DNA from: Halorubrum salsamenti
GTDB taxonomy: Archaea > Halobacteriota > Halobacteria > Halobacteriales > Haloferacaceae
NCBI RefSeq assembly: GCF_007671685.1
Contig: NZ_VCNL01000002.1
Coordinates: 372,001-436,000, forward strand
DNA: 64,000 nucleotides
Reading direction: 5' to 3'
Shown in pieces: positions 18,114 to 46,725 of the stretch. Each line of letters opens with the position of its first letter. Position 1 is the first letter of the stretch. The notes under the pieces are model-generated. The model was given only the letters and a program-made list of their open reading frames with translations, was not told where the DNA came from and made no database searches. The position numbers were made by a program, and so were the translations under genes.

Positions 18114-20048
18114 TCAGTCGATGTTCTCGATGTAGGCGTACTCCTCGGAGAGGGCGGCGGCGTCCTCGGGGAGGAGCGCGGCGACGAGGTAGTCGGCGTG
18201 CGTTCGGAAGTAGTCGACGACGCGCGCGATTCGGTCCGAGTCGATCGCTTCGAGCGAGTCGAGCAGGACGAACGGGACCGTCTCGTGAACGTCGTGGACG
18301 AGGTACCCCGCGAGCGCGAACACGAGCCCCGTCACCTCGCGCTCGCTCTCCGAGAGGTGGTCGACCGTGTCCTCGTAGGCCGTCCCGTCGGGCGACGAGC
18401 GGACGATGTGGAGGTCGAACCGGGTCCGCGTGACCTTGCGGCGACCCTCGCGGACCTCCGTCTCGCGGCGCTCGATCCAGATCCGGTCGAGGTTCTCGTA
18501 CTCCAGAATGTCGAGGACGGTCTCCATGTGTTCGTTGAACCCCTCGACGGCGTTCTCCTCGATGCGGTCGACGCGCGTCCGCAGCTCGGTGAGCCGCTCG
18601 GCCAGCTCCTCGCGTTCCGCTTTCAGGTCCTCGCGGCGCTCGATCGCGGCCTCGCGCTCGTCGATCTCGTCGTCGATTTCGTCGATCTCGTCCTCGATCC
18701 GCTCGATCCGGAGCTCGATCCCGTTCGCCTCGCGATGGAGCTCTAGCGCCTCGTCGTAGCCGTCGACGTCGATCGACTCGGCCTCCTCTTCCAGCTCCTC
18801 GATCTCGTCCGCCTTCGACTCGATCTGCGCTTCTAAGTCGGCGATCCGCGACTCGGTCGATTCGATCTCCTCGTCGACCGCGTCGAGCCGCTCCTCGGTG
18901 CGCTCGATCTCGCGTTTCGCCTCGCGGATCGACGACTGCTGGTCGGTGAGCTCCTGGATCTCCGCGCGGATCTCGTTGCGCTCGTCGAGCTTGTCGGACC
19001 GAAGCTCCCGGAGCCGATCGAGGGTCGCCTCGATCTGGTCGGTCTCGACCTCGGACCCGCAGGTCCAACAGACCGTCTGGTCGCCCGCGGTCAGCGCGGC
19101 GGTCGGGTCGTCGCCGGACGCCCCCTCGTCGACGTCGATATCGATCCCCGAGCCGTCCACCATGTCCTCGTTGAAGCCGATGACGCTGCCGAGCTCGTTG
19201 ATGTCGTCGTCGAGCGAGCGCTTCCGGCGGCGCAGTTCGTCGATGCGACCGGCGAGACGGTCCGCGTTCTCCTCGGGCTCCTCGGCCTCCTCGACCGTCT
19301 CCCGAAGCTCCTCGCGCTCGGCCTTCAGCTCCGAGAGCGTCGAGCGCTCGGTCTCGAGGTCGAACTCGAGGTCGTCAAGCTCGGAGCGGGCGTCGCGCAC
19401 CTGCTGGAACGCCTCTTCCATCTCCTGTTTGCGCGTCCGGCTCTCCTCGACGCCGGCGTCGAGATCGTCGAGCTCCTCGCGGACCGCTTCGAGCTCTTCT
19501 TGCGCTGCTTCCAGCTCCTCGACCTTCTCGCGGCGGTCCGCTTCGAGGTCGGGCAGGTCGCGTTCGAGGCTGTCGAGCTTCTCGATCTCGGACTCCAGAT
19601 CGTCGCGCTCGCGCTTGCACTCTCGGATCTCCGCGTCGATCGAGTCGGTGTCGATCGGGCGCATGATGATCTCTCGGAGGTCGTCGCCGCGCGCCACCGC
19701 TCGGCGCGCCTCGTTGTTCTCCAACAGGAACGCGAACAGGTCGGCCAGTTCCGGGTCGTCGAGGTACGGGTCGCCGCCGAACGCGACGGAGTCGCCGCGG
19801 CGTTGCAGCGTGCGCGTGTACGTCTCGTCGCCGAGTTCGAGGGCCACCTCGCCCTCCTCGGCGTCGCCCTTCAGTGAGCTCTGTCGACTACCGAGTCCGG
19901 CCATCAGCGCCTGCAGGAAGGAGGTCCGGTTCGTCGCGTTCCGTCCGGTCAAAATCGAGACGCCGTCGGGGAGTGTCACCGACGCCTCGTCGATGCCACC
20001 GATGTTCCGGACATCGACGCGGACGACAGGTTTCGAGATTTGAGCCAT
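18114..20048 (-). CDS. Archaea-specific SMC-related protein (Rad50/SMC-like ATPase)
   Basis: A 644-residue ABC-type ATPase of the SMC/Rad50 class, in the archaea-specific subgroup that includes the Halobacterium Sph protein. The N-terminal nucleotide site is degenerate: GRNATNRTS (35-43) replaces GxxGxGKS/T, with Arg in place of the P-loop Lys, as seen in this subgroup. Two long coiled-coil arms flank a zinc-hook-like CWTC (327-330). The signature LSESE begins near 565 and the Walker B region LLDSLEAID near 595. Expected role: chromosome organisation or DNA ends. Expressed as a single gene next to the tubulin-like island; any link is only positional. Confidence 0.85.
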   Translation of the reverse strand: MAQISKPVVRVDVRNIGGIDEASVTLPDGVSILTGRNATNRTSFLQALMAGLGSRQSSLKGDAEEGEVALELGDETYTRTLQRRGDSVAFGGDPYLDDPELADLFAFLLENNEARRAVARGDDLREIIMRPIDTDSIDAEIRECKRERDDLESEIEKLDSLERDLPDLEADRREKVEELEAAQEELEAVREELDDLDAGVEESRTRKQEMEEAFQQVRDARSELDDLEFDLETERSTLSELKAEREELRETVEEAEEPEENADRLAGRIDELRRRKRSLDDDINELGSVIGFNEDMVDGSGIDIDVDEGASGDDPTAALTAGDQTVCWTCGSEVETDQIEATLDRLRELRSDKLDERNEIRAEIQELTDQQSSIREAKREIERTEERLDAVDEEIESTESRIADLEAQIESKADEIEELEEEAESIDVDGYDEALELHREANGIELRIERIEDEIDEIDDEIDEREAAIERREDLKAEREELAERLTELRTRVDRIEENAVEGFNEHMETVLDILEYENLDRIWIERRETEVREGRRKVTRTRFDLHIVRSSPDGTAYEDTVDHLSESEREVTGLVFALAGYLVHDVHETVPFVLLDSLEAIDSDRIARVVDYFRTHADYLVAALLPEDAAALSEEYAYIENID

Positions 20049-20847
20049 CGATATGGTTGCAGAACGATACTCGCGGTGTTAAATCTATCCTTCGCTCAGC
20101 GGTTCAGCGCGGTCTCGAACCGCCCTGACGGTGTCGATACGCCGGATCGACGTCGTCCCGGTCGATCGGCACCGCCAGAGAAAACGTTTCTACTATCAAA
20201 TGGGTCGGATGTCTCCTAAGAGTAGAGAAACATCCGCAGATCGCGGATCAGCGATACCGCGTCGAGCGGTCCGCCGGAGCTCCCCGTTCCAGATTGGATC
20301 GTACGTCCTTATATCTCCGATAAAGATAAATGAACAGGAAAATTCTGTCAAATAAGAACCACAAAACACCAATATATGAAAATATAGTTATAAATAAACT
20401 GTAATAAACTCAGATAACAGTATCTATTAAAAGATAGTCAGTATACGCGATAAGAAGTAGTTACACACGATATCCTCCATTGATCGGTGTTTTGTCGCGA
20501 TAGAGTCGGCGAGTTCCATGCGTCCGATCTCGCGGACCGGGATCGAGCCGGTCCGAGCGAAACAGAACCCATCAAGAAATTTATTAGTGTATATATCTTA
20601 TAAGTGATCGATACGTGACGTTCAGTAGAGATCTGTTATTCTCCCTGATAGAGGAAACGGCGCACGCGCTTTGGACGCGGCCGGTGATGGCAGTCGGACG
20701 GGTCCGGCGATCTCGACTCAACGGAGATCTCGGCTCAAAGACGTACGCAGACGGTGAAGTGAACCACACCAGGAATGCGGGTCACCGGGGGTTCACCGAT
20801 CGTCATGTTCGCAAGGTTTAGTATGGGAGCCTGTCACGCATGTTGTA
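20049..20847. other. AT-rich spacer before the five-gene operon
   Basis: About 800 bases. 20300-20470 is strongly AT-rich with many poly-A/T and ATATAT steps. No frame shows coding bias. It carries the promoter of the operon at its right end. Confidence 0.6.
20817..20823 (+). promoter_or_regulatory. TATA-like box of the five-gene operon
   Basis: TTTAGTA is centred 28 bases before the first ATG at 20848, indicating a leaderless transcript that reads into the AAA+ ATPase operon. Confidence 0.5.
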
Positions 20848-21948
20848 ATGACGATCTTGCCGGTCGATACGGACGTCCTTGAGGACGTCTGTCGAGATAT
20901 CGCCCAAGACAACTACGGGTTCGTGTACGTCACGGATCAGAAGTCGGAGATCAAATCCGGCTACGAGAACGCGGACGTCGGAATGCTGAACGCCGGGTCG
21001 CTCGCCGCGAGCGACATGCGGAAGTCGCTCGCAGAGATGTCGAGCGACGAGTTCGTCGATCTCGAACAGATCCGCGACGGGGTGTACTACGTCGATCCCT
21101 TCGGGGTGAAAGGGAACATGAACATCACGCGGGAACTGACGAACCTCTTCGGCCAGCGGCTCGTCGTCACCGGTGAGACGCTCCGCTCGCGGTTCTCGCT
21201 GGCCATCGACGACCTCGACTTCTTCGTCGACGAACTCACCGAGCGCGACTACCTCCGCCGCATCACCGCGGGTAAGCGCGACTACTACACCATCGGGACG
21301 CAGCTCAAGGAGCACGCCGACGACGTGGGGCTCGACGCGCGGCTCGAACGCGAGGCGTCGAACGGGAAGATCGCTCACAGCGACCTCGAGAGCGTCATCG
21401 ACGTGAACGCCACCTCGGACGTGATCCGCTACCTCGATCGGGAGGGGTACATCGTCGACCTCGACGGCGAGTATCTCGTCGAGGAGGCGATAGACGAGTA
21501 CGCGGAGTTCCTCGCGGACGAGATCGAGGAGGCGATCGAAGGGGAGTTCGAGGAGTCGAACCACGCGTTGCGCGTCGGAGAGTTCGAACAGGTCGTCGAG
21601 AACGCGATCGACTCTCGGTTCGACGTGCTGTCTGTGGCGCGGAGCGTCCGGACGGAAATTCTCAGGGAGACGCGGTCGACGCTCGTCGACCGCCTGGGGC
21701 TTGCGGTGGGACCGGAAGTCGTCACGGTCGAGGAGCCCTTCGACCGACTCGTCGACGAGCGAGCGCGCCGGATACTCGGTGAGGTGAAAGGGGAGTACGA
21801 CGTGTTCGCCTCCCCCTCGGAGTTCACCGAACGCGCCGAAGCGCAGTTCGAGGAACTCCAAGTCGCTCACGACGACCGCGTCAACGAGCACGTCCGCGAG
21901 GCAGTGGTCGACCGGTACGAGACCGTCGTCGCCGACGAGGAGTTCTGA
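20848..21948 (+). CDS. Uncharacterised protein, possibly tandem winged helices
   Basis: 366 residues, soluble, no signal peptide or membrane segment. The sequence looks like successive alpha/beta units that end in short strands (DYLRRITAGKRDYYTIG; EGYIVDLDGEYLVEE), a pattern of repeated winged-helix domains. A long helical C-terminal half follows (AEFLADEIEEAIEGEFEES and later VNEHVREAVVDRY). I do not recognise a named family. It is first in the operon with a coiled-coil protein, a small helical protein, an AAA+ ATPase and a beta-propeller protein. A scaffold or adaptor role is more likely than DNA binding because of its context; this is inference. Confidence 0.7.
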   Translation: MTILPVDTDVLEDVCRDIAQDNYGFVYVTDQKSEIKSGYENADVGMLNAGSLAASDMRKSLAEMSSDEFVDLEQIRDGVYYVDPFGVKGNMNITRELTNLFGQRLVVTGETLRSRFSLAIDDLDFFVDELTERDYLRRITAGKRDYYTIGTQLKEHADDVGLDARLEREASNGKIAHSDLESVIDVNATSDVIRYLDREGYIVDLDGEYLVEEAIDEYAEFLADEIEEAIEGEFEESNHALRVGEFEQVVENAIDSRFDVLSVARSVRTEILRETRSTLVDRLGLAVGPEVVTVEEPFDRLVDERARRILGEVKGEYDVFASPSEFTERAEAQFEELQVAHDDRVNEHVREAVVDRYETVVADEEF

Positions 21949-21977
21949 AAGCCGATGGAATAATGTGGATTGACTGA

Positions 21978-21984
21978 TTTATAC
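21978..21984 (+). promoter_or_regulatory. TATA-like box inside the operon
   Basis: TTTATAC is centred about 22 bases before the ATG at 22003, in the 54-base gap after the first gene. It may drive the last four genes separately. Confidence 0.4.
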
Positions 21985-22002
21985 AGACTCAACGACCATC
22001 GA

Positions 22003-23025
22003 ATGACTCGCAAATATTCCTTCGAAACGAAAACGATCAACGGCCAACAGTTCGTCATCGCGGAGGGGCGCGGTCAGGCCTCCGAACCGATCCGCGTCCG
22101 GGCCGACTGGATCGAAAGCGACGACATGGAGGGGAAATGGGAGGACCTGATCAAACAGATCGTCCAGCCGGAGAACATCGATCAGATCGACATCGACGAG
22201 GGACACGGCGGGATCAGCCGCCGAGAGGCCGTCGAGGCGCTCGCCGGGGCGACCGCCGACGGGGAGACGATCGTGTCGAGCGAGCAACAGGCCGACGTGC
22301 TCGTCGAGTACCTCGCCGAGGAGGACATCGTCGAGATCGAAGGCGAAGAGCTCGTGCTGTTCCGGGACCCCGACGAGGAGAACCTCAACAGCGCGGCGCT
22401 GATGAACTGGGCGGCGCTGATGTCTGCGGTGATCGAGAGCATCGACGAGCATCTCGAACGGGTCGAAGACGCGAAAGAGCGGTTCCAAGAGACCGTCGAT
22501 ACGCTCGAAGTCGAGCAGCAGGACTCCGAGGAGCGTCTCTCGAAGACCGCACAGCGGATACAGAACCTCGGTCCCGGACAGGGAGTGCCCGACCCGGACA
22601 CGCTGAGCGACGAAGAGCGGCAGGAGTACACCCAGCTCAAAGAACACTACCTCTACCTCCAGGACATCGAGAAGGCGAAGTCGGAGAACTTCGTCGAGAA
22701 CGTGAGCGCCGGCGTCGATCAGATCGGAATGGCCATCGAACGCCTCGAGGCCGCGCGCGAGGCGTACGACATGTTCCACAGCAACACCAGAAAGGCGGCG
22801 CTGAAGAGCTCCGTCTTCCCCGAGGAGGCCCTGGAGTTCGTCGACAACGCCGGGAGCCTGATCAACGAACTCGCCGGGCAGGAGGAGAGTCAGGCGGACG
22901 AGGTCGCGGACGACGACTTCGCCGAGATGATCGAAGAGAACCACGGCGAAACCGTTCAAGAACAGGCCGCGGAGACCGCGGACCTCGCCGAGACCGCCGA
23001 GGAGGCAGCGGGGTTCAAACGGTAG
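22003..23025 (+). CDS. Winged-helix plus coiled-coil protein, unknown function
   Basis: 340 residues. The first 45 form a small beta-rich unit. Residues 60-115 look like a winged helix (SRREAVEAL, then EEDIVEIEGEELVLF). 125-290 is a long helical region with coiled-coil heptads (ESIDEHLERVEDAKERF). The C-terminus is a very acidic tail. No signal peptide. The ATG at 22003 is supported by the TATA-like box; 21970 (TTG) is the longer alternative. One base separates its stop from the next ATG. The neighbouring AAA+ ATPase could act on it as a filament or coil substrate, but that is only a suggestion from context. Confidence 0.7.
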   Translation: MTRKYSFETKTINGQQFVIAEGRGQASEPIRVRADWIESDDMEGKWEDLIKQIVQPENIDQIDIDEGHGGISRREAVEALAGATADGETIVSSEQQADVLVEYLAEEDIVEIEGEELVLFRDPDEENLNSAALMNWAALMSAVIESIDEHLERVEDAKERFQETVDTLEVEQQDSEERLSKTAQRIQNLGPGQGVPDPDTLSDEERQEYTQLKEHYLYLQDIEKAKSENFVENVSAGVDQIGMAIERLEAAREAYDMFHSNTRKAALKSSVFPEEALEFVDNAGSLINELAGQEESQADEVADDDFAEMIEENHGETVQEQAAETADLAETAEEAAGFKR

Positions 23026-23026
23026 G

Positions 23027-23662
23027 ATGTACGCCTCATCGTTCATCGAGGCGTTCAAGACCGTTGACGGGGCCATCGAGCGCGCGCTTTCCCTCGATAC
23101 GTATCGCCAAACGGACCGGGTGCGCCGGATCCGGTCGGAGGCGGTGGCGGCGACGGACGACATCGCCGAGCTGTCGACGGTCGCCGTGGCCGGCGTGGAG
23201 CTGTCGGGGTACGAACGATGGGAGACCGACGACATCGTCGAATCGATCGTCGAGGCCCGGATCGCGGACCGCGATGACCCAGATCTGTCCGCCGAGGACA
23301 TCGATCGCGCCGTGAGCGCCGGGCGCATCGTCGAGGAAGCGGGAGCGGTTCTCGTCCCGCTGACCGATGAGCCGGGACCGATTCGGAACTGGTGGCTCCT
23401 CGCGAACGAGCTGTGCGACTGGCTCGCGGATCTGATCGACGACGCGCGTCGAGTGCACCGCCGCGCGTCCGTGGACGGGTCGGCCCTCGTCGAGACCGCG
23501 TTTTGGACGCTGTTGGACCGGCTGGTCGCGCTCCGGGAACTGCTGGACGAGGCCCTGACGATGGGCGATTTCGTGTACCGATCGACTCGACGGGAAACGT
23601 TCGAGATGCTCACCGACATCGGTCGGGTCGCGGGAACGATCACGGAGCGAACCCATGCTTAA
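23027..23662 (+). CDS. Small helical protein, unknown function
   Basis: 211 residues, mostly predicted helix, no signal peptide. It contains a WWLLANELCDWLADL segment that is amphipathic and could contact a partner or the membrane surface. No recognised domain. The stop overlaps the start of the AAA+ ATPase by 8 bases and the start follows the previous stop by one base. It is therefore translationally coupled to both and probably made in fixed ratio with the ATPase. Confidence 0.7.
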   Translation: MYASSFIEAFKTVDGAIERALSLDTYRQTDRVRRIRSEAVAATDDIAELSTVAVAGVELSGYERWETDDIVESIVEARIADRDDPDLSAEDIDRAVSAGRIVEEAGAVLVPLTDEPGPIRNWWLLANELCDWLADLIDDARRVHRRASVDGSALVETAFWTLLDRLVALRELLDEALTMGDFVYRSTRRETFEMLTDIGRVAGTITERTHA

Positions 23663-25388
23663 CATCAAGCCGATAGCCCTGTCGCGACAGCCGACCTCGC
23701 ACGTCAAGATCGGCGACTCGAAGATCAGCGCGGCGACCGACGTCGTACAGCTGAAACACAAGGGGATCGGCGCGTATTTCTACGTCAACACCGTCGACGA
23801 CCTGTTCAACGACATCGGGAACGAGGTCCGCGTCCACGAGAACGTCGAGCGGCTGTTCGGCGGGTTCGACCGGAGCCGGGACTTCCTCGTCGACACCGAC
23901 GTCTCGATCGCGGAGGTCCCCGACTGCACGTCCGTCTCGATCCACGCGGAGACCGACGAGGGCGAGCTGGAGGCGTTCCTCCGCGAGAGCAACTACCTCC
24001 TCCATCCGATCGAGGAGGCGGTCGAACGCGGCGAGCGTCTCGAAACGTTCGATCCGGTCGATCTCGAACCGTCCGGGTACAACACCCTTCGAGTGACCGA
24101 CGAGACCGAGATCGAATTCGTCGATACCGGAGAGTACCGAGAGCGGAAGGCGATGGCGGACTCCCGACCGACGGGGCCGGGCACAGGCGGGCAGGGGCGC
24201 GGCGGACAGGAGGAGGACGACGAGGCGGTCCAGGTGTCGCTCGAACCGAAGAAACCGACGGTCAGCTTCGAGGAGGACGTGGCCGGGCTGCCGGAGGTGA
24301 AACGCACGGCGGAGAACCTGCTGGCGCTGTTCGATCCCGACGTGCGCGACGAGGTCGTCGACCGCTACGGCGACGAGTTCGCCTCGCGCGGCAACAGCAT
24401 GCTGCTGTACGGTCCCCCCGGCTGCGGGAAGACGCTCGTCTCGGAAGCGATCGCCTACGAGGCGAAGTACAACTCGAACATCGAGGAGAGCTACGGCGAG
24501 GTGAAGTTCCTCGAGATCAAGGGCAGCGACGTGCTCTCGAAGTACTCCGGGGAGTCGGAGAAGCGCGTGGAGGCGATCTTCGAGAAGGCACACGGGATCG
24601 CACAGGACGGGTTCGCCGTCCTCTTCTTCGACGAGGTCGACACGCTGATCCCGGACCGCGGCGACGACTCGCTCCAGCGCCACGAGCGCTCGCTGACCAA
24701 CGCGTTCCTCCAGGAGATGAACGAGATCGAGGACAACCTCCTGGTGATCGGCGCGACGAACATGCCGTTCACCATCGATCCGGCCGCGACCCGGCGGTTC
24801 CCGATCCAGCAGTTCATTCCGCAGCCGGAGACGGAGGTGATGGCGCAGGTGTGGCGGAAACACCTCGCGTCGATGAACGGGACCGACGCGCTCGACTACG
24901 ACCGGCTCGGCGAGCTTTCGACTGGATACACCCCCGCGGAGATCGCCGACCGCGTGCTGGGAAGCGAGCTCCAGCGCGAGTTCGTCGAGAGCGTCCACCT
25001 CCCGGACCGGGAGCCGATCGATCCGACGACCGACTACTTCGCGGACCGGCTCGGGGAGACCGAGCCTAAAACGGTCCGGCAGTACGTCGCCAGCGTCCGG
25101 ACCCAGATCGACGACCTCGAAGGGTACCCGGAGCTGCGGCGGTACGTCGAAGAGCAGGCCGAGCGGCTGGACATGCGGCTGGGCAACGAGCCCTCGTCGC
25201 TCGAGCAGTTGTTCGGTGGGGACGGAAACGACGAGGGAGGCCCCGAAGGCGACGGAAGCGGCGGGGGCGGGGACGGCGGAAGCGGCGACGGCAACGGCGG
25301 ACCGACGCCCGGCGGCGAGGCCGCCGAGGGCAAGGGCGCCCCCGGAAGCTCCGCCGAGGCGGAGATCGGAGGTGACCGCCGTGACTGA
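23655..25388 (+). CDS. AAA+ ATPase, CDC48/Vps4-like, with Gly-rich tail
   Basis: 577 residues. The N-terminal 165 residues are a beta-rich domain of unknown type, possibly comparable to the CDC48 N domain. A single AAA module follows: Walker A GPPGCGKT (253-260), pore-loop region SKYSGESE with Tyr297 as the likely substrate-gripping aromatic, Walker B LFFDEVD (323-329), sensor 1 GATN (366-369) and Arg380/Arg381 as arginine fingers. About 60 residues at the C-terminus are Gly/Asp-rich and disordered. The family remodels or unfolds proteins as hexamers. There is no protease domain, so remodelling rather than degradation is expected. The reading frame overlaps the next gene by 8 bases. Confidence 0.87.
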   Translation: MLNIKPIALSRQPTSHVKIGDSKISAATDVVQLKHKGIGAYFYVNTVDDLFNDIGNEVRVHENVERLFGGFDRSRDFLVDTDVSIAEVPDCTSVSIHAETDEGELEAFLRESNYLLHPIEEAVERGERLETFDPVDLEPSGYNTLRVTDETEIEFVDTGEYRERKAMADSRPTGPGTGGQGRGGQEEDDEAVQVSLEPKKPTVSFEEDVAGLPEVKRTAENLLALFDPDVRDEVVDRYGDEFASRGNSMLLYGPPGCGKTLVSEAIAYEAKYNSNIEESYGEVKFLEIKGSDVLSKYSGESEKRVEAIFEKAHGIAQDGFAVLFFDEVDTLIPDRGDDSLQRHERSLTNAFLQEMNEIEDNLLVIGATNMPFTIDPAATRRFPIQQFIPQPETEVMAQVWRKHLASMNGTDALDYDRLGELSTGYTPAEIADRVLGSELQREFVESVHLPDREPIDPTTDYFADRLGETEPKTVRQYVASVRTQIDDLEGYPELRRYVEEQAERLDMRLGNEPSSLEQLFGGDGNDEGGPEGDGSGGGGDGGSGDGNGGPTPGGEAAEGKGAPGSSAEAEIGGDRRD

Positions 25389-28329: not shown

Positions 28330-28359
28330 CGGCGCCACAGACGCAGTCGGAGAAAAAGG

Positions 28360-28391
28360 AAAACGGGTGAATCGGGGTCGTTCCCCGTTTT
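28360..28391. terminator. Inverted repeat between the two convergent operons
   Basis: AAAACGGG at 28360-28367 pairs with CCCGTTTT at 28384-28391. An inner hairpin CGGGG-TCGTT-CCCCG lies at 28373-28387. It sits between the stop codons of two converging operons, with a T-run on the plus strand and, by symmetry, on the minus strand: a likely two-way terminator. Confidence 0.6.
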
Positions 28392-28425
28392 GCGGTCGTT
28401 GTGTCGCCGGCGTTTTCTCCTGAGC

Positions 28426-31714: not shown

Positions 31715-31715
31715 G

Positions 31716-34631: not shown

Positions 34632-34637
34632 GCGCGA

Positions 34638-35867: not shown

Positions 35868-35870
35868 TTG

Positions 35871-37967: not shown

Positions 37968-39007
37968 GCTATCACCCGGAGCAGCGGGCCAAGCCCAACC
38001 AACACGGCGAGGATAGCCGCCCCGGCGACGACGGCGACGGTCCCGATCAGGATCGGGAGCAGCGCCGTCTTCCGGTCGTAGCTCACGTCCCGGCTCAGCT
38101 TCATCTTCTCTTTGACGCGACGCGCGGCGACCAACGGAACCGCGGCGCCGGCGACGAGGCCGAGCGCCACCCCGGCTCCCAGCGATCCGAGCACCGAGAG
38201 CCGCACCGTCGAACGGGGGCCTTCCGCCTCCGCTCCGATCGCGGTGGTGTACGCGGTCGCCGCCGCCGTCACGTTCGCGTCGCGTTGCCGATACCCCTCG
38301 TCGAGCGCCGCGGCCGTCCCGACGGCGCCGGTGACGTTCCCGCTCTCGCCCGTCAACCTGAGGCGGTCCAGTAGGTCGCCTCGTGCGTCTCTCATGTCCG
38401 TGTAGTTCCTCTCCAAGGAGTGAACCGTTTCGTTTGCCGCGTCGAGGTCGCCCTCGCCGGCTTCGAGCGCGCCCGTCGTCTCGTTCAGCGCCGCCGTCGC
38501 GTTTGCGGTCCGACTCACGGCGTTGCGGTACCGCCGGTACGCGTCACCGACCTCGTCGTCGCCGGCTGCGAGCTCGTCACCGACCGCCTCGGCGCCGCCT
38601 CCGGCGACGTTGACGACAAGCCGGTTCTCGAACGACGGCTGGTCCCCGTCCGCGAGGTGGTCGGCGAAGTCGACGGTCTCGGTCTCGCCGGTGATCGTGA
38701 CGGGGTACGTGTGGCCGTCGCGGTCACCGACCTCGAAGCCGGTGCCGTCGGACAGCCAGTCCCGGTCGGCCGGCTCGCCGAACGAGCAGTAGCCGACGGT
38801 CAGCGTCGACCCGGGGTGGAGCGTGACCTCGTTATCTTCGCCACCGATGTCGTCACCTCCGACGCCGCCGACGATGGCGCTCTCGTTCTCGCCGATCCCC
38901 TCACAGTAGTCTTCCGGGCCCGCGGCCGCCGCACCGCCGGATGCGACGGCGAGCAGGCCGACGCAGAGCAGCGACACCAGCAGGCAGCGTCTCGCTCGTC
39001 CGGTCAT
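37964..39007 (-). CDS. Surface protein with two C-terminal membrane helices
   Basis: 347 residues. A signal peptide (LLVSLLCVGLLAVASGGAAAA) is followed by a small beta domain with two Cys (near 34 and 74) that may form a disulfide. A helical part rich in N-x-T/S sites comes next (NATAALNETTGAL). Two membrane segments close to the C-terminus (GVALGLVAGAAVPLVAA; ILIGTVAVVAGAAILAVLVGL) have a basic loop of about 20 residues between them. Overlaps of 4 bases with both neighbours. Confidence 0.72.
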   Translation of the reverse strand: MTGRARRCLLVSLLCVGLLAVASGGAAAAGPEDYCEGIGENESAIVGGVGGDDIGGEDNEVTLHPGSTLTVGYCSFGEPADRDWLSDGTGFEVGDRDGHTYPVTITGETETVDFADHLADGDQPSFENRLVVNVAGGGAEAVGDELAAGDDEVGDAYRRYRNAVSRTANATAALNETTGALEAGEGDLDAANETVHSLERNYTDMRDARGDLLDRLRLTGESGNVTGAVGTAAALDEGYRQRDANVTAAATAYTTAIGAEAEGPRSTVRLSVLGSLGAGVALGLVAGAAVPLVAARRVKEKMKLSRDVSYDRKTALLPILIGTVAVVAGAAILAVLVGLGPLLRVIA

Positions 39008-39279
39008 TCGAGCCGCCCCCCGATCTGTTTGCTCTGGTACCAGTACGTGGCGCCGCTCGCGATCACGGCGCCGACACCGAGTCCGATCAGCGCGCCGCCG
39101 GCCGCGAGGTACGGGACCTGCCCGGCGAGCGCGGTGGCGGCCGTCGCCGTCGCCGTCGCCTCGACGGCCGACCGGACGGCCTCGACCCCGGCGCCGACGG
39201 CGACGCCGACGAGTCCCACGAGCGCGGCCACCGCGACGAGCGCGACCCTCTCAAGCCGCGGTCTCGTCGTCCGAGTCAT
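39004..39279 (-). CDS. Small two-helix membrane protein
   Basis: 91 residues, ATG at 39279. Both ends use ATGA overlaps: its start overlaps the stop of tubulin-like copy 2 and its stop overlaps the start of the next gene. The coding frame is thus firmly fixed between them. Residues 12-32 (ALVAVAALVGLVGVAVGAGV) and 52-74 (PYLAAGGALIGLGVGAVIASG) are membrane helices with many Gly. The tail YWYQSKQ is probably cytoplasmic. It could be an assembly subunit in contact with the GTPase. It is easily missed because a longer frame runs through it. Confidence 0.75.
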   Translation of the reverse strand: MTRTTRPRLERVALVAVAALVGLVGVAVGAGVEAVRSAVEATATATAATALAGQVPYLAAGGALIGLGVGAVIASGATYWYQSKQIGGRLE

Positions 39280-40556
39280 GCGAACAGCTCCTCCGTCTCC
39301 TGTTCGTAGGCGTCGGCCGCGGCCTCGATCTCGTCGAGGCGGTCGAGGTCCTCGCGGCGGTACGTGAGCAGCGTCACGACCGACGCGAGGTTGCGGCCGC
39401 TGAGCGCGACGCCGAGGTTCACCTCGTTGAGCCGACAGCTCCGTTCGAGGTACTCCTTTATCGTCCCGGTCTCGACGCCGTGCGAGCCCGGCCCGATGTT
39501 CGCGCTGGGCGCGCGGACCAGTGCGATCGCCTTTTGGGCGTCGTTCGGGTCGGCCTTCGCGAGCGACTGCTTCGACGCCGAGAGCCGCGCCAGCGCCGCG
39601 CTGTCGATGTCCCGGCGCCCGACGAACGGGAGCAGGTACCCCGACAGCGACCGCGTCATCGTCACCGATCGCCCGATCGCGCCGTACCCCGGTCGGGACT
39701 CTCCGCCGGCGACGCCGAAGGACAGCGACGTGACGATGTCGCGAACGTCGATGTCCGGGGTGTCGACGCCGTCGACCTCGCTGGCGTCGACGTTGCTCAA
39801 CATCGGCCCGACGACGATGTCGTGGAACGCGGCGGCGACGTACTCGTTGTACTCGCCGAACTCGCCCCCGGCCGAGTCGAGGTACGAGATCCGCTGATTG
39901 TCGACGAGGACGATTCCGTCGACCTCGTCTTCGAGTCGGTCGAGGCCGTACCGGGCGTTCCACGCCTGTCGGCCCGCGCTGACCTCGCCGTCCGTCTCGT
40001 CGTCCTCGACCCCGCCGCGGGTGTTCGGGAGGACCGTCACGGCGACGACCTTCGTCCGGTCGTCGGTGAACTCCTTGATGCCGCGAGCGATGTGCGGGCT
40101 GATCCCGCACCCGGTGCCGCCGCCGAGTCCGACGAACAGGAACGCGAACTGAATGGCGTCCGTGTCGGTCGCCGGTACGTTCTCCTCGTCGTCCGCGGCG
40201 GCGGCCCGTCCCCCGAACTTCGATTGGAGGACCGTCTGGAGCTCGTCGGCGTGGTCCGCCATCACCTCGTCGGCGTCGACCGGATTCCGACCGAACCCGC
40301 CCGTCACCATCTCCTCGAAGCCGGGCTCGATCCCCTGCACGAGCCCGTGCTGCTGTGCGACCCCGTATTGGTCTTCCGCGGGAACGTTCGAGAGGTTCTG
40401 TAAGTCCCGCATCGTCGAGTTGAACACCAGCGGTCGACCCAGCGTCGAGATGTCCGTGGACTCGAACAGCCCGAGCATCGAGTCGTCCGTGTACTCGAAG
40501 ATCGCGTCGACGATCGCTCCCCCCGCTTGTCCCGCGCCGATAAACAGATACGTCAT
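39276..40556 (-). CDS. Divergent tubulin/FtsZ-superfamily GTPase (copy 2)
   Basis: 426 residues. T1 loop GAGQAGG (7-13), tubulin signature GGGTGCG (145-151), VTVLPNTRG (173-181) followed by an AGRQAWNARYGLDRL helix, T6 strand DGIVLVDNQRI (213-223), and IDVRDIV (269-275). The last box is very like that of copy 1 and carries the acids expected in the FtsZ T7 loop. An acidic insertion occupies 117-135. No membrane segment: a cytosolic GTPase expected to polymerise. First gene of the eight-gene operon; it overlaps the small membrane protein by 4 bases. Confidence 0.83.
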   Translation of the reverse strand: MTYLFIGAGQAGGAIVDAIFEYTDDSMLGLFESTDISTLGRPLVFNSTMRDLQNLSNVPAEDQYGVAQQHGLVQGIEPGFEEMVTGGFGRNPVDADEVMADHADELQTVLQSKFGGRAAAADDEENVPATDTDAIQFAFLFVGLGGGTGCGISPHIARGIKEFTDDRTKVVAVTVLPNTRGGVEDDETDGEVSAGRQAWNARYGLDRLEDEVDGIVLVDNQRISYLDSAGGEFGEYNEYVAAAFHDIVVGPMLSNVDASEVDGVDTPDIDVRDIVTSLSFGVAGGESRPGYGAIGRSVTMTRSLSGYLLPFVGRRDIDSAALARLSASKQSLAKADPNDAQKAIALVRAPSANIGPGSHGVETGTIKEYLERSCRLNEVNLGVALSGRNLASVVTLLTYRREDLDRLDEIEAAADAYEQETEELFA

Positions 40557-40589
40557 TTAGCTGGTGGTTCCTTCGTACGCCCGCTCGTG

Positions 40590-40600
40590 AAAATAGTTAT
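40590..40600 (-). promoter_or_regulatory. Possible TATA box of the eight-gene operon
   Basis: On the minus strand the sequence ATAACTATTTT is centred about 39 bases before the ATG at 40556, in an AT-rich gap. It would imply a short leader of about 10 bases. Weak evidence. Confidence 0.3.
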
Positions 40601-40682
40601 CGAACAGTACATGTCTCTACTACAGATATTACTCGAACATCGGATTATAAAGATGGTGGACGTACCAGTATGCGGACAGGCG

Positions 40683-42752
40683 TCAGCCGCGCAGTCGACG
40701 GAGCATTACGCTGTACTCGTTGCGCTCGTACAGCTCCTCGACGTGATCGAGGAGGTCGCTCGCCGCGGCGAGCTGGCCGGCGGCCCGTTGCGGCTGCTCG
40801 TCCCCCATCCGCCGGGCCCGATCACAGAGCGTGTCGGCGAGGTCGAGGAAATGCTTCGGAATAGTGTGGTTGTGGTCCGCGCGGACCGAGACGTACTCCT
40901 CGTTGACCGACGCGATCCGGTCTTCGACGTCGTGCACGCGACGGGCCACGTCGACGCTCTCCGAGGGCCCGTCGGACCGTGAGAGCCGCGGGACGAGCGT
41001 CCGGTCGTAGAAGGTGCATTCCTGGTAGATGGCGTACAGCTGCACTTCGTCGACGTCCGGCTCGTCCGCCATCGCCTCCAGCTCCCGGACCCGATCCGCG
41101 AGGTGGCGATAGACGTTGCCGTCCGCCCGCTGGAGGTCGCGTTCGAGCGACTCGATCCGGCGGCGCACGTCGCTCACCTCGATATCCGCGATCGCGGCCT
41201 GCACCTCGCTGAGTTCGTCGAGCCGCTCAACCGTCGACCGGAGCCGCTCGGCCGCCTCAGCCTCGTCGCCGTCGTCGAGCGCGTCGAGCAACCGTCGCGT
41301 CTCCGACGACCGCGGACGCGCGTCGGCACGCACCCGGTCGGCGAGCGACGACAGAGACGAACTCGGGCGCTCGACGGCGACCTCGCCGCGTTCGATCGCG
41401 TCCGCGAGCGCCGTCGCCCGGTCAGCAACATCTCCAGAGCCGAGGTCGACCGTGCCGTCGGCCGCCCGGCAGAGCCGCTCTGCGGCCTCGCGGTGGCGGT
41501 CGCGCTCCGTCTCGGACCGGTCGCGCTCCTCCGCCAGTTCGATCGCTCTGTCGAACACCGGGAGCAGCCCGGACGCGGCGTCGCCGTCGCTTCGCGCGAC
41601 GCGGCTGCGCGCGGACTCCAACTGACGGGCCGTCGGCGAGTCGTCAAGGCCGGAGACGGCGTCCGTGAGCGCCGCGTCGCTCTCCAGACGCTCGACCGCG
41701 TCGCCGAGGACCGACTCGACGCGGCTTTCGTCCGCGTCGGGATCGGAGAGAACCCGACAGAGCTGCTCTGCGACGTCTGATTCCGGTCTCTTTCGGGTCG
41801 AAACCGTGTCGGCAGCCGAGACGGTGCGGGCCGATTCGGAGTCGCCGGCGTCTGAGCGATCGGGCGGGCTGTCGGTTGCTCCGTCATCCCGATCAGCGGG
41901 CGATCGAGAGCCCGTTGCCGGCCCGGTGTTTTGTGGCGATCGGCTGCCAGCGCTTGACTGGCGGTCCGAATCCGAGGTGTCACGCAGCGGCGACGCGGTC
42001 CCGCACTCGGGACAGAAGCGCATGTCGCGGCCGACATCGGCCCCGCAGTCGGTACAACTCGGAGACACGTCTTCCGCAGTCGTCTCCGGCTCGTTTTCGT
42101 CCGCCAGCGGAGAGGTCTGATCCGGTTCCTCGGTGGATTTTGACGCTGCCTCACGGTCGTCCGCATCGGCGTCGGTCTTCGAGAACGGAGATTCCGTCCC
42201 GCATTCGCGACAGAAATCCACATCTTGGGAGTAGGAGACGCCGCAGTTCCGACAGATTCGGGTCTGACGGTTCTGTCCCCCGTCCGACGTTGCCTCATTC
42301 GTCGTCGACCGAGTCGCACGGTTGTCGGTTGTCACAGTTCCGCTCGACGTGCCCGCTTCCGGGGCGGATCCGGTCGTCCCAGTGACATAACCGCCTAACA
42401 CGCCACCGATGAGACCGAACGCGATAGAGTGAGAAATGATAATGAGTATGATAAGACCGAGACTGCCCGCGAGGATACCGCCGATGACCGGAACATCTGC
42501 CAACGCCTGTCCGAAGAAGACTCCGAGTAGAATCGCGGGCAACGTCATCCCGATACCGTTCAACAATCCGGATTTCACCCCGCCCCACGTGCTTTGGCTG
42601 CCAATGTACGCCGCGGTCGCCCCTCCCAGAATCGGGCCGAACAGGCTCACGACCGGGAGGAGATACGCGAGGGTCGTGACGCCCATCCCGGCGAGGACAC
42701 CTTTCAGCAGCTGCTTTCTGTGTCTCCCGCTGTTACTCGTCGCCGTTCTCAT
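40683..42752 (-). CDS. Membrane protein with two zinc ribbons and a coiled-coil region
   Basis: 689 residues. Residues 15-130 contain about four membrane segments with Gly-rich turns, similar in appearance to the DUF5518 group of small haloarchaeal membrane proteins. Two double-Cys zinc ribbons follow (CRNCG...CRECG near 165-185; CTDCG...CPECG near 233-252). After a low-complexity Ser/Asp linker, about 370 residues of helix and coiled coil run to the end. The long cytoplasmic part suggests an adaptor. It diverges from the small zinc-ribbon membrane protein next door; an AT-rich TATA-like run (TTTTTAATG, minus strand near 42786-42794) fits its promoter. Confidence 0.72.
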   Translation of the reverse strand: MRTATSNSGRHRKQLLKGVLAGMGVTTLAYLLPVVSLFGPILGGATAAYIGSQSTWGGVKSGLLNGIGMTLPAILLGVFFGQALADVPVIGGILAGSLGLIILIIISHSIAFGLIGGVLGGYVTGTTGSAPEAGTSSGTVTTDNRATRSTTNEATSDGGQNRQTRICRNCGVSYSQDVDFCRECGTESPFSKTDADADDREAASKSTEEPDQTSPLADENEPETTAEDVSPSCTDCGADVGRDMRFCPECGTASPLRDTSDSDRQSSAGSRSPQNTGPATGSRSPADRDDGATDSPPDRSDAGDSESARTVSAADTVSTRKRPESDVAEQLCRVLSDPDADESRVESVLGDAVERLESDAALTDAVSGLDDSPTARQLESARSRVARSDGDAASGLLPVFDRAIELAEERDRSETERDRHREAAERLCRAADGTVDLGSGDVADRATALADAIERGEVAVERPSSSLSSLADRVRADARPRSSETRRLLDALDDGDEAEAAERLRSTVERLDELSEVQAAIADIEVSDVRRRIESLERDLQRADGNVYRHLADRVRELEAMADEPDVDEVQLYAIYQECTFYDRTLVPRLSRSDGPSESVDVARRVHDVEDRIASVNEEYVSVRADHNHTIPKHFLDLADTLCDRARRMGDEQPQRAAGQLAAASDLLDHVEELYERNEYSVMLRRLRG

Positions 42753-42844
42753 TAGTCATCCCGGACTCATCTTGTTAACGACACATTAAAAATGTGAGTG
42801 AATATACCACAGCCGATCCAGCGGAGCGGAGCGGCGTCGGGGAT

Positions 42845-42853
42845 ACATTTATG
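42845..42853 (+). promoter_or_regulatory. TATA-like box of the small zinc-ribbon membrane protein
   Basis: ACATTTATG is centred 29 bases before the ATG at 42878 and is the reason for choosing that start. Confidence 0.45.
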
Positions 42854-42877
42854 GTCGACCGACCGCCGCAGAGGGAT

Positions 42878-43294
42878 ATGGCAAAGAGGCAACTAAACCC
42901 GGACGAGATGTTCTGTACCAGTTGTGGTGAGATTATTAAACGGAAAGCCGAGATCTGCCCTGAGTGTGGCGTCCGACACGACGAGGACCCAACCGCGACG
43001 AACGGCGGAGGACCTGCGTCGACGGCCCGGGGGACTGCGTCGACGAACCAGAGAGCCACATCGACGGCCGGGGGAAACGACGTGGGACTCGTGATGGCGT
43101 TCGTGGACCTCTGGAAAGCGAAAAAGGCCGTCCGTCATCTGCTGGATCTCATTCTGATATTCGTCTCGTTCGGGACGTATCTCGCGATATACTTCGTCGA
43201 AGCGTTCGTCCACTACTACTACCTCAAGAAAGGGAAGTACGGCATTTACGACGAGGAGACCGATTCGGAGATCTGGTCGCCGCTGCTCAAGTGA
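42878..43294 (+). CDS. Zinc-ribbon membrane protein
   Basis: 138 residues. An N-terminal zinc ribbon (CTSCG at 13-17, CPECG at 29-33) is followed by a Thr/Ser/Gly linker. Then come one or two hydrophobic segments (HLLDLILIFVSFGTYLAIYFVEAFVHYYYL) and a short acidic tail. A longer frame from a GTG at 42794 is open but lacks promoter support. Divergent to the much larger zinc-ribbon membrane protein; both share the plan of zinc ribbon plus membrane part and may be partners. Function unknown. Confidence 0.7.
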   Translation: MAKRQLNPDEMFCTSCGEIIKRKAEICPECGVRHDEDPTATNGGGPASTARGTASTNQRATSTAGGNDVGLVMAFVDLWKAKKAVRHLLDLILIFVSFGTYLAIYFVEAFVHYYYLKKGKYGIYDEETDSEIWSPLLK

Positions 43295-43354
43295 GTACGT
43301 CGAACGGCGACGGAAAATCTGAACCGCGATCACCCGACGTGGATTCGCGGCCGG

Positions 43355-44983
43355 CTATCCCATGTTCTCGCGGCCGAGACACGAGAACAGCGCCTCGACC
43401 TCGTCCCACACCTCGCGGATATTCTCGGCCTGCTCGGTGTTCCCCTCCTGTTTGAGCGTCAGCGCGTGGTCGTACATCGCCTCGATCGACGGCATCTCCG
43501 GGTTCCACAGCGTTCCCCACAGGTACACGTCGTCGAGGTACGGCGTCACGAGCTGTTTGATGTGGATGTCCACCGACTCGATGCCGGTCGAGCGGCCGGC
43601 GTCGAGGAACTGCTCGTCGCCGATAATGCTCGCGAGGGTACCGTCGCCGATCAGCTCCGACACCTCCCGCATCTTCCCCTCGGGGCCGTACACGAGGAAG
43701 GTCCCGCCCCACGCGGTCGTCGGGTCGAACTCGGCGAGCTTGTTCTGGAACAGCGCGTTCCGGACGAGTAGCTCCAGCTTCGACTCGTCGAACGCGTTCG
43801 CCCGCGAGCGGCCGAGCACCGGTGCGAGCACCACCGCAGGCGAGAAGTCTCGGTCGGGATCACGCTGGTACTTGTCCTGAACCGGCCGGAAGCTGTCCGC
43901 CGGGTCGAACACGTCGCCTTTGATCGACATCGTCGCGTCCCGGTCGAGGAACTGCGGCACCGATGACATCGTGAACGCCTCCAGGAAGGCCACGAGCGGC
44001 TTGTTCACCTCGACGTACTGCGGCGGGTTGTACTCGCCGAGCCGGTCGATCCGCGGGCGGATGTCGGCGCCCACGTCCTCCAGCCGCTTGTTGTCGAACG
44101 GGATGATCGCGTCGACGGTCCGGGAGGTGCGAGCGAGTCCGACGACGCCGTTCACCTTCGCGCGGCCGCCGAACTCCGAGTACTGGGTCCCCTCCGAGGG
44201 GATCACGACGCTGCTGAACAGCGGCTTCGAGACGATTCCGTCGTCGAGCACCTTCTCGCGGAGCTTCTCGGCGAGGACGGGGGTCGCGCCACAGCCCGTT
44301 CCCTTGGTGACGCTGTGGACGAACATCACGGCCTGTGAGTCTTGGAGCCGCTCGCCCTTGAGGTCCCACCGCTCCCGGAAGGGGTCGGCGTCGTCGGCGA
44401 AGTCGGCCTCGATCAGGTCGCGTCCGAGGTCCCACCGGTAGCCGGCGCCGGCGTAGTCGTGTTCGCCGAAGCCGATGATGCAGTTCGGGAGGAGGTCGTT
44501 GCGGCTGTACCCCTTCTCCTCTTGGGCGTAGTAGGTCTGTTCGAGCTCGCTGACGTTGGTGTTCAGCAGGCCGTACCCAGCCAGTCCGCCCTGCCAGATC
44601 CGGGCGCGGCGCTCGTTGTTCTCCTCCAGCGTCGCGCGTCGGAGCAGGATCGCGTCGAGGATGTTGTTGCCCGCGCCGCCAACGCCGACGAGATACCACT
44701 TCTTCCCGTACGCGTCGTCCATCAGGTCGTCGCTCGGCGTCTCGGTCCCCGAGGGCGCCGGCGTCGCCGCCCGCCCGAACTCGTCGGTATCGGTCGGGGT
44801 ACCCGGGTCGCTCGTGTCGTCGGCGGTGGGGTCACCCCCGGACGTCGCCGCCTCCTTGAGATCGGGATACACCTGCTCGACCGATGCGGGCTCGTCCGCG
44901 TGGGCCCGGGCAAGGTGTTCGACGAGCGACCCCCCCGCCCACTTGTTCGAGCGCTGCATACAGATCTTGCAGATGTCGGTCAT
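43355..44983 (-). CDS. C2H2-type zinc finger fused to a divergent FtsZ/tubulin-like GTPase (copy 3)
   Basis: 542 residues. Residues 5-28 form a finger of the pattern C-x2-C-x14-H-x4-H (Cys5, Cys8, His23, His28), followed by a disordered Asp/Thr/Pro linker to 95. The GTPase part has T1 GVGGAGNN (100-107), NTN (141-143), a variant tubulin signature KGTGCGA (227-233; first Gly replaced by Lys), VVIPSEG (259-265) and the T6 strand IIPFDNKRL (293-301). GDVFDPAD (356-363) offers acids at the T7 position. The C-terminus (480-542) is helical. The finger could bind nucleic acid or protein. Single gene; a TATA-like TTTTATG (minus strand, 45022-45016) lies about 36 bases upstream. The ATG at 44983 is preferred over 45025. 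Confidence 0.82.
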   Translation of the reverse strand: MTDICKICMQRSNKWAGGSLVEHLARAHADEPASVEQVYPDLKEAATSGGDPTADDTSDPGTPTDTDEFGRAATPAPSGTETPSDDLMDDAYGKKWYLVGVGGAGNNILDAILLRRATLEENNERRARIWQGGLAGYGLLNTNVSELEQTYYAQEEKGYSRNDLLPNCIIGFGEHDYAGAGYRWDLGRDLIEADFADDADPFRERWDLKGERLQDSQAVMFVHSVTKGTGCGATPVLAEKLREKVLDDGIVSKPLFSSVVIPSEGTQYSEFGGRAKVNGVVGLARTSRTVDAIIPFDNKRLEDVGADIRPRIDRLGEYNPPQYVEVNKPLVAFLEAFTMSSVPQFLDRDATMSIKGDVFDPADSFRPVQDKYQRDPDRDFSPAVVLAPVLGRSRANAFDESKLELLVRNALFQNKLAEFDPTTAWGGTFLVYGPEGKMREVSELIGDGTLASIIGDEQFLDAGRSTGIESVDIHIKQLVTPYLDDVYLWGTLWNPEMPSIEAMYDHALTLKQEGNTEQAENIREVWDEVEALFSCLGRENMG

Positions 44984-45096
44984 GTTTGGATACGGTATCG
45001 GGGGTGGCGGAGACACATAAAACATTACGGACGCGACCGGTCGCGTCCGATTCCGTTACCGAGTCCTGATAGGAATTCATCCGCGTTCCCTACCGC

Positions 45097-46725
45097 CTAT
45101 CCCCCATGTCGCTCCGTGAATCGCTCCCGAAGCGCGTCGAGACCGGCAGACACAGTGGTTCCTCCGCTGAACTCGATCTCGAAGAAGCCGGGCGGGGCGT
45201 TCTCCTGCAGCGTCACCGACGCGACGAGGTCCGTCTGTCGCCGGCAGAACGTCGTCAGCGGTTCAAGCACCTCACGGCGTCCCACCGCGTCAGGGAGCCG
45301 CTCGGTCTGGCACTCGACGGCGCCGTTCCCCCCCCGGCCGTCGAGCTCCCGAAGCACGAAGAGGATCTCGTCCGCGACCGCGTCCGGCGTGAGCTGTTCG
45401 CGGTCCCCGGTCTCCTCTCGCTCCGTCCCGCTCGCCGATCCGGCCGACGAGGAGACGCCGGACGCTTCGCGGCCGGGACTGGACACCTTCTCGCCGGACC
45501 GCGAGGACCCCTCACCGCCGGACCGCGAGGGACCGCGATCTCCGGACCGGGAGGGACCACCGGTGACGACGAGTTCGTCACCGTCGAGCTCGACACCGAC
45601 GGCGTACTGCCGGTCGAGGATGGGAACGAGGTCGGCGACGAACTCGTCGGCCACGCCGTCCGGAACGCCGACGCGGCCGCTCCCGTGATCGATCGTCCCA
45701 GTGACCCCGCCGAGGAAGTCGACGGCCATCAGCAGGTCGTCGCCGGTCCGCTCGGCGTCGCGGACCGCCCGGTCGGCGTCGTCGAACGCGCAGGCGTGGA
45801 GCGATCGGTCCGCAGCATCGAGTCGACGCTCGATGTCGACGACACCGGGAAGCGCCTCGTGGCGACCGTCGACGACGAACTCCCGCACCCGGTCGGCGAA
45901 GACGCCGTCGAAGCGATCGGTCATCTCTCTGATGTCCGCGAGCGTGCGCTCCGCCTCGCGCCGCTCGTCGAGGTACGACTCCTCTCGGCGGCGAACGTGC
46001 GACTCGACGTCGCGACAGTGGTCGTTGACCGCCGCGACGACCCGAGCGACCTCGTGGAGGTCGCGGTCGTCGAGCGCGTCGCGGACGGTTCCCTCCAAGT
46101 CCGCCACGTGGACCGTCTCGCCCCCGGGCGGGACCGTCAGTTCTCGGAACCGACTCGGCAGGTTCACCACGTCGTAGGCCCCGCCCAGCGACGAGGTCAC
46201 GGTCGGGTCGAACCGCCCCTCGTCGAGGGCGTCTTCGACCGCCTGTCGGAGGTCCCGCTCCATCGCGTCGACCGCGCTCGGCGCCGCGTTCCGATCAAGC
46301 GGGAGCCGGTCGCGGATCCGTCCGACCGCATCCGGCGCGACCGGTTCGAGCCGGTCGAGAGCGCGCTCGCCGATCCGATCGTCGAACGCCGCGCTCGCGC
46401 CGCCCGCGTTCGGTCCGGTTACTCCGTCTTCTGTCGCGCCGCCGACACCGCTCGAGGGGGATGATCCGGGAGAAGGTTCCGACGGCTCGCCGGACGCATC
46501 CCCGTTCCGGCGGCGGTACGCGAGCGCTCCGACCGCAGCGACGAGAAGCACCGCGACGCCGCCGACGGCGAGTAGTAGGGTCGTCCCGAACCCGCCTGCA
46601 ACGCCGACGACGCCCCCGACGCCGTCGAGGGGGACCGCAGTCGCCCCCGGTTCGGCAGCCAGCTCGGTCCGCCCGGCGATCGCCGACCGGACTCCCTCGA
46701 AGCGGTCCACGTCCATACGAGCCAT
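45097..46725 (-). CDS. Single-pass membrane protein with long cytoplasmic helical part
   Basis: 542 residues. One membrane segment (TTLLLAVGGVAVLLVAAVGALAY, near 48-70) is followed by basic residues and a Gly/Ser/Pro linker. A helical region comes next (120-340, for example SYLDERREAERTLADIREM). Then a linker near 395-430 with repeats of the word SRSG, and a compact C-terminal alpha/beta domain. The SRSG repeats recall the Ser/Arg linker of the beta-propeller protein. No known family. It may start at an ATG nine bases further in (46716). It is the last island gene before the methyltransferase, transcribed toward the zinc-finger GTPase. Confidence 0.7.
   Translation of the reverse strand: MARMDVDRFEGVRSAIAGRTELAAEPGATAVPLDGVGGVVGVAGGFGTTLLLAVGGVAVLLVAAVGALAYRRRNGDASGEPSEPSPGSSPSSGVGGATEDGVTGPNAGGASAAFDDRIGERALDRLEPVAPDAVGRIRDRLPLDRNAAPSAVDAMERDLRQAVEDALDEGRFDPTVTSSLGGAYDVVNLPSRFRELTVPPGGETVHVADLEGTVRDALDDRDLHEVARVVAAVNDHCRDVESHVRRREESYLDERREAERTLADIREMTDRFDGVFADRVREFVVDGRHEALPGVVDIERRLDAADRSLHACAFDDADRAVRDAERTGDDLLMAVDFLGGVTGTIDHGSGRVGVPDGVADEFVADLVPILDRQYAVGVELDGDELVVTGGPSRSGDRGPSRSGGEGSSRSGEKVSSPGREASGVSSSAGSASGTEREETGDREQLTPDAVADEILFVLRELDGRGGNGAVECQTERLPDAVGRREVLEPLTTFCRRQTDLVASVTLQENAPPGFFEIEFSGGTTVSAGLDALRERFTERHGG

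Follow-up and report, generated by a model that had tools for sequence, protein, structure and literature searches.

The window analysed here, a 64-kb stretch (64,000 nucleotides) of the Halorubrum salsamenti genome (3.67 Mb, haloarchaeal; contig NZ_VCNL01000002.1), contains a 26.7-kb island (20099..46765) of 16 genes in two convergent operons. The best reading of this island is a membrane-anchored two-tubulin machine, to which a module resembling the endosomal sorting complex required for transport (ESCRT) has been added together with a third tubulin. The island genes occupied 20848-46725. The rightward operon (20848-28329) had the gene order P2, P3, P4, AAA, P6, and the leftward operon the order P17, TubC, P15, TubB, a small transmembrane (TM) protein, P12, P11, TubA, P9, P8, P7. 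Neighbouring genes inside each operon mostly overlapped or stood close together (distances of −17 to +126 bases); only TubC and P15 were farther apart, by 602 bases. A first-pass annotation of this DNA had described overlapping stops and starts; several junctions showed such overlaps (4-17 bases), and the genes that it named were real open reading frames where it had placed them.

The evidence for a single unit came from a sample of 145 genomes of the class Halobacteria. TubA and TubB orthologs were present in an identical set of 15 of these genomes, and the N-terminal part of the AAA protein and P2 were both present in an identical 13 of those 15. TubC occurred in the same 13 genomes and gave two additional distant matches in other loci (G031 and G081), which were rejected as TubC orthologs, being distant variants with other partners. 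All 16 genes stood in one locus and in one order in 10 of the 145 genomes, and further named loci mostly showed the same gene order as far as they extended. In two loci with a GC content of about 50% or less the genes were placed by tblastn; one low-GC locus yielded neither P12 nor the small TM protein, and another yielded no small TM protein. Three genomes of one genus carried the P2-P3-P4-AAA-P6 operon unlinked, either at a distance of ~65 to 250 kb within one contig or on a separate contig; none of the three lacked it, and its internal order was unchanged. No AAA operon without the tubulin core was found among the 145 genomes. Pairwise distances for the AAA protein correlated with the distances for every other member (Spearman 0.49-0.90), to which shared genome ancestry contributes. 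It is almost certain that the island genes form one functional unit. The first-pass annotation had proposed one multi-part machine linking GTPase filaments to the envelope, and a recurrence of the gene set in other Halobacteria as its check. The unit held, by gene order, exact co-occurrence, and transfer of the island, and so did the recurrence of a collinear set; the AAA gene belonged to the second, convergent operon. The pattern that the annotation had named as refuting, operons that occur apart, was seen in part: two Halobacteria and distant archaea had the core without the AAA operon.

The extent of 26.7 kb was assigned because a close relative (G171) showed a clean empty site. In a blastn comparison of G171 with the window both flanks were present and the island was absent; synteny ended at 20098 and restarted at 46766, with 689 unrelated bases between the two flanks in G171. 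G038, in the sample the sole further genome of this genus with the island, gave the opposite picture: most of the island aligned, at 76-88% DNA identity, and the flanks did not. The empty site in G171 and the different flanks in G038 therefore indicate that the island was gained or lost as a whole. The window TubA was 98% identical to the TubA of Halorubrum persicum and Halorubrum amylolyticum. It shared 84-87% identity with proteins from other families (G085, G105, and G141) but ~57% with several from its own, a further sign of transfer. The 16-gene block moves between species as one unit.

No tRNA was found in the 64-kb window, no direct repeat of at least 12 bases was found between the two island end regions, and Pfam scans of the island genes showed no integrase domain. 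A 14-base inverted match, CGCGGACGACAGGT, was observed near the island ends (20018-20031 and 46747-46760), which may be chance or an insertion trace. The left edge had earlier been set at 18114, but the boundary lies at 20099. The gene starting at 18114 encodes an archaea-specific SMC-related protein (ASRP; 18114-20048, minus strand; NF045487, 686 bits) and borders the island. It was rejected as a part of the machine, being a flank gene that the island-free relative carries as well.

By sequence, TubA, TubB, and TubC belong to the tubulin superfamily with their guanosine triphosphatase (GTPase) motifs intact, as the first-pass annotation had read them. All three lie on the minus strand and exceeded the curated PF00091 cut-off of 33 bits: TubA (34638..35867) scored 37.3 bits, TubB (39276..40556) 54.1 bits, and TubC (43355..44983) 46.9 bits. 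Among aligned orthologs, which for TubA and TubB include distant archaea, the T1 and T4 motifs were kept and the T7 D-x-x-D was present in 50 of 50 TubA, 32 of 33 TubB, and 13 of 13 TubC sequences, with the TubA T4 motif GGGTGNG and T7 motif invariant in all 50. In tubulin and FtsZ the T7 loop acts on GTP bound to the adjoining subunit. The conservation of the T7 D-x-x-D therefore suggests filament-dependent GTP hydrolysis by the island tubulins. TubC showed in addition an N-terminal C-x2-C...H-x4-H motif, in which both histidines were invariant and the cysteines nearly invariant.

Profile searches against PDB sequences matched TubA (3e-13) and TubB (8e-12) to CetZ/FtsZ, and TubC weakly (3e-3) to tubulin/FtsZ. 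For the tubulin fold, which had been set as a check, the model of TubC, the most divergent of the three, gave mixed signals. All 50 Foldseek matches listed were FtsZ or CetZ proteins (best 2.4e-12, probability 1.0), but the model was of low confidence (predicted local distance difference test, pLDDT, 53), and its structural alignment gave a Z of 11.1 with a high root mean square deviation (rmsd). In the superfamily tree the three proteins formed separate clades, TubB beside the three CetZ proteins of the host genome (support 0.84), and TubA and TubC apart. None of the three groups fell inside the CetZ clade by tree or by profile scores; with the TubB profile the host genome's own CetZ scored at most ~39 bits, compared with 155-167 bits for TubB of ANME-2. 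The island tubulins also failed the cell-division FtsZ equivalog TIGR00065, with only 17-37 bits against a cut-off of 295 bits. Besides these three, the host genome encodes six PF00091 proteins, five of which, judged by their T4 motif and their place in the tree, resemble FtsZ (two) or CetZ (three). The remaining one (G000:C1:86217-86630, L006) lies in a 384-aa frame, scored 48.5 bits, and was missed by the motif search.

A scan of the TubA alignment against ~85,000 genomes gave 58 loci, many of them non-halobacterial (Methanoperedens, ANME-2, Hydrothermarchaeota, Altiarchaeota, and Micrarchaeota). Each of the 14 non-halobacterial TubA genomes examined for TubB (ANME-2, Hydrothermarchaeota, Altiarchaeota, and Micrarchaeota) gave a match, and the matches checked scored 155 bits or more, far above host CetZ. 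The Methanoperedens and Hydrothermarchaeota loci kept TubB-P11-TubA with P7, P8, and P9, and the Methanoperedens loci additionally retained P6 or the small TM protein. The search for P2 was negative in ten non-halobacterial TubA genomes and in two Halobellus genomes, and no AAA match was present within the fetched non-halobacterial loci. As the core occurs without AAA in two Halobacteria and in distant archaea, and AAA was never found without the core in the 145 genomes, the core is the older part and AAA an add-on. In G042 and G048, which carry the core without TubC or the ESCRT-like genes, a Tubulin_2 (PF13809) protein of ~1150 aa stood beside the core; together with the variant partners in G031 and G081 this indicates that the system is modular.

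Two further loci were seen in those last two genomes. L116 and L115 (G031 and G081) contain distant relatives of TubC, P17, P15, and P6; L116 also encodes a double-AAA ATPase and a CarboxypepD_reg-kinase fusion, and L115 a Tubulin_2-related protein instead.

The ESCRT-like operon on the plus strand begins with P2 (20848..21948), a cytoplasmic, probable tandem winged-helix protein by its alignment, which co-occurs with AAA. Against PDB sequences its profile matched SelB weakly (E 0.17), and a match to glucose-6-phosphate dehydrogenase (1.6e-4) was judged spurious. P3 (21970..23025, start at 21970 or 22003) is predicted to have a winged helix and a long helical hairpin, and is a candidate ESCRT-III-like polymer. 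Its AlphaFold2 model (pLDDT 72) showed a winged-helix-like order of helices and strands at ~43-120, followed by the long hairpin, and its closest fit by rmsd was the CdvB2 ESCRT-III filament subunit 9s98_B (Z 9.7, rmsd 1.8 over 110 residues). From this model P3 may have ESCRT-III activity. P4 (23027..23662) is a fast-evolving cytoplasmic protein with an invariant N-W in the alignment, and its gene, directly upstream of the AAA gene, has a conserved place in the full loci.

The AAA gene (23655..25388) encodes an AAA+ ATPase of Vps4/Cdc48 type (PF00004, 6.5e-32) with invariant Walker A, Walker B, and Arg residues, in agreement with the earlier assignment as CDC48/Vps4-like. In the PDB search it was nearer to Cdc48/VAT (2e-49) than to Vps4 (3e-27). 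In hhalign, 127 columns of its N-terminal domain aligned with Cdc48 N-domains (probability 58%), and no MIT domain was found in the protein by Pfam. The last protein, P6 (25381..28329, 982 aa), is predicted to be a cytoplasmic, 'adaptin-like' protein with a beta-propeller and immunoglobulin (Ig)-like part and without a TM segment. Similarity to the propeller/Ig folds claimed for it was weak: its profile matched the PQQ propeller BamB (3e-4) and designed Ig folds (1e-3).

Signal peptides or TM segments were predicted by a hydropathy scan of the window sequences in eight conserved island proteins, in line with the first-pass count of at least eight membrane or surface proteins. All eight are encoded on the minus strand. 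P7 (28426..30714) is a predicted exported protein of the old core with Ig/ASH-type repeats (Pfam), a helical domain, and a C-terminal TM anchor; its profile gave no match among PDB sequences. P8 (30698..31714), also of the old core by locus comparison, showed a signal peptide, a helical ectodomain, and a C-terminal TM segment. P9 (31716..34631) had a signal peptide, an ectodomain, a TM region, and a cytoplasmic Ig-like (CarboxypepD_reg-type, Pfam) and helical part. P11 (35871..37967), whose gene lies between TubB and TubA, has two predicted N-terminal TM helices and a long cytoplasmic part, and is a candidate tether. By hydropathy and locus comparison P12 (37964..39007) showed a signal peptide, an ectodomain, and two C-terminal TM helices, and the small protein (39004..39279) two TM segments. 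P15 (40683..42752) contains zinc ribbons and a cytoplasmic helical part, with TM helices predicted in some orthologs only, the window protein included. P17 (45097..46725), which adjoins TubC, combined N-terminal TM helices (one to five in its orthologs) with a cytoplasmic helical part. A helical region was common to P11, P15, and P17, and P9 had domains in common with P11 and with P7. The tubulins, AAA, P2, and P3 showed no TM helices, and P4 and P6 at most one marginal segment in few orthologs.

In the proposed mechanism, the first module is the old core, in which TubA and TubB, as active GTPases, would form filaments on the cytoplasmic membrane. The tether of these filaments would be P11, together with P12 and the small TM protein, and P7, P8, and P9 would couple them to extracellular Ig-like and helical domains, with P6 as a putative cytoplasmic propeller/Ig adaptor. 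The second module would consist of TubC, its membrane partners P17 and P15, and the ESCRT-like set of P2, P3, P4, and the AAA+ ATPase. GTP-driven TubA/TubB filaments would organise and bend a patch of the envelope and collect its surface proteins, TubC/P17 would recruit P2, P3, and P4, and P3 would polymerise at the neck. Disassembly of the P3 polymer by the AAA+ ATPase would then release a bud or a sorted domain. Polymerisation and tethering of TubA/TubB are putative, and for envelope remodelling or sorting as the role of the machine we consider the chances evenly balanced.

Several observations weigh against this proposal. Helical models often reach a Z such as that of P3 with CdvB2, the Foldseek search with P3 gave no E under 0.001, and its profile retrieved no ESCRT-III among PDB sequences, only artificial helical proteins. 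The candidate assignment of P3 as PspA-like by profile was not reproduced (hhalign probability 3%). In ANME-2 loci TubA was separate from TubB, which adjoined P8/P7 in several of these genomes, and the module was missing from ~90% of the sampled Halobacteria. Haloarchaeal vesicles are made with the small GTPase ArvA, and CetZ knockouts of Haloferax volcanii left the vesicle output unchanged (PMC10927574). Vesicle release as the sole role of the island is weakened by these two results.

The same genes could instead build a cytoskeleton for cell shape or surface scaffolding, in which lasting membrane-bound filaments position surface proteins and the AAA+ ATPase merely recycles subunits, with no budding. 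This is consistent with the role of CetZ, the nearest relative of TubB, which is implicated in shape and motility (PMC9856176), with partners that are mostly membrane proteins bearing ectodomains, and with the occurrence of the core without any ESCRT part. It gives no reason for the joint retention of TubC and a four-gene ESCRT-like operon in the same 13 genomes, whether linked or not, and we regard it as rather unlikely. Still less probable is a conflict system, that is, a patchy and transferable membrane NTPase machine for defence or antagonism against viruses or neighbouring cells. The patchy distribution and the transfer as an island would fit, and the AAA+ protein resembles anti-phage IetA models, but that similarity was confined to the generic AAA domain. 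Moreover, no nuclease, toxin, or other effector domain was found in Pfam, PADLOC gave no tubulin match, and the core is old and spread across distant archaea.

That two unrelated operons became neighbours by accident in this genome deserves hardly any credence. The operons are convergent and the AAA operon is missing from core-only genomes, as such an accident would allow. A chance neighbourhood is excluded, however, because the set recurs collinearly in other genomes, with the same order in 10, an AAA operon never found without the core in the 145 genomes, and its retention where it is unlinked. For Halobacteria the co-occurrence data refute this reading.

We return to the membrane-anchored two-tubulin machine with its ESCRT-like module, which is only partly new. 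The closest published match is the Halo_adaptin ESCRT system, for which the main text of Makarova et al. 2024 (PMC10936438) suggested vesicle formation and sorting. As described there, it has a Vps4-like ATPase that lacks MIT and is preceded by ESCRT-III-like and winged-helix genes, a propeller/Ig 'adaptin-like' protein, Ig and membrane proteins, and a CetZ-like protein, which in the island corresponds to TubB. The AAA operon matches this system, and its layout resembles P2-P3-P4-AAA-P6, with only moderate agreement in the tests reported above. Haloquadratum walsbyi is named in that text as a carrier, and in H. walsbyi J07HQW1 (L134) we observed P17-TubC-P15-TubB-small TM protein-P12-P11-TubA-P9-P8-P7 and part of P6, with the AAA operon beyond the locus. 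The main text describes one CetZ-like and two propeller proteins, whereas the island has three tubulins and one propeller protein. The island also differs from that description in its eight conserved membrane proteins, in moving as a unit, and in a core that also exists without the ESCRT part.

The first-pass annotation had overlooked Halo_adaptin and drawn a parallel to the FtsZ-like families of Makarova and Koonin (2010), which is less close. The FtsZl1/Tubulin_2 system (PMC2875224) likewise joins a divergent FtsZ-like GTPase to membrane proteins and was proposed to remodel membranes, but it has von Willebrand A and OmpA proteins. Neither was found in the island by Pfam, in agreement with the annotation for von Willebrand A. 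Against PF13809 (cut-off 27 bits) TubB reached 14.2 bits, and no match was listed for TubA or TubC. An assignment of the island to the FtsZl1/von Willebrand A system was therefore rejected.

CetZ belongs to the archaeal tubulin superfamily as the island tubulins do, from which it is separated by their own clades. Also related are the Halo.Tub and Altiarchaeota CetZ-like groups (Santana-Molina et al. 2023, PMC9871819), described in the part of that source covered as Halobacterota paralogs with several quasi-tandem copies among coiled-coil genes of unknown function. The Halo.Tub groups, compared by description, are probably part of the same families as the island tubulins. The same part of that source describes no conserved gene set, ESCRT link, or TubA-TubB pairing. 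New, as far as the main texts of the literature show, are the set with three tubulin genes, its movement as one piece, the pairing of TubA with TubB across archaea, and a third-tubulin module that can be exchanged.

Taken across archaea, these data suggest, with a little less than even confidence on our part, a shared old paired-tubulin membrane machine (TubA, TubB, P7, P8, P9, and P11) from Hydrothermarchaeota, Altiarchaeota, and Micrarchaeota to ANME-2 and Halobacteria. Third-tubulin modules (TubC with the ESCRT-like set, or Tubulin_2) would be exchangeable on it, so that tubulin-type and ESCRT-type polymers would meet in one transferable haloarchaeal machine. Tubulin and ESCRT filaments are two great membrane-shaping polymer systems, and a compact transferable set with both, in culturable halophiles of which some are perhaps genetically open, would allow a direct test of their cooperation. 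The recurrence in very distant archaea points to an old, barely studied membrane-shaping machine, and the paired-tubulin core, present also in methane oxidisers, is a candidate cytoskeletal system for the prehistory of the eukaryotic cell.

Three minor observations were made at these loci. Within the leftward operon of the window, a gene for a zinc-ribbon membrane protein (42794-43294) lies on the opposite (plus) strand and has a lower GC content (0.59-0.63); no counterpart was seen in other island loci, and it is perhaps a later insertion. G048 encodes a second, divergent TubA-like protein (L114:10250-11440) of ~27% identity with different neighbours. In many ANME-2 loci (such as L151 and L144) tubA adjoined a gene family that clustering found in 13 loci, identified in L151 as cdhC, the beta subunit of CO dehydrogenase/acetyl-CoA synthase.

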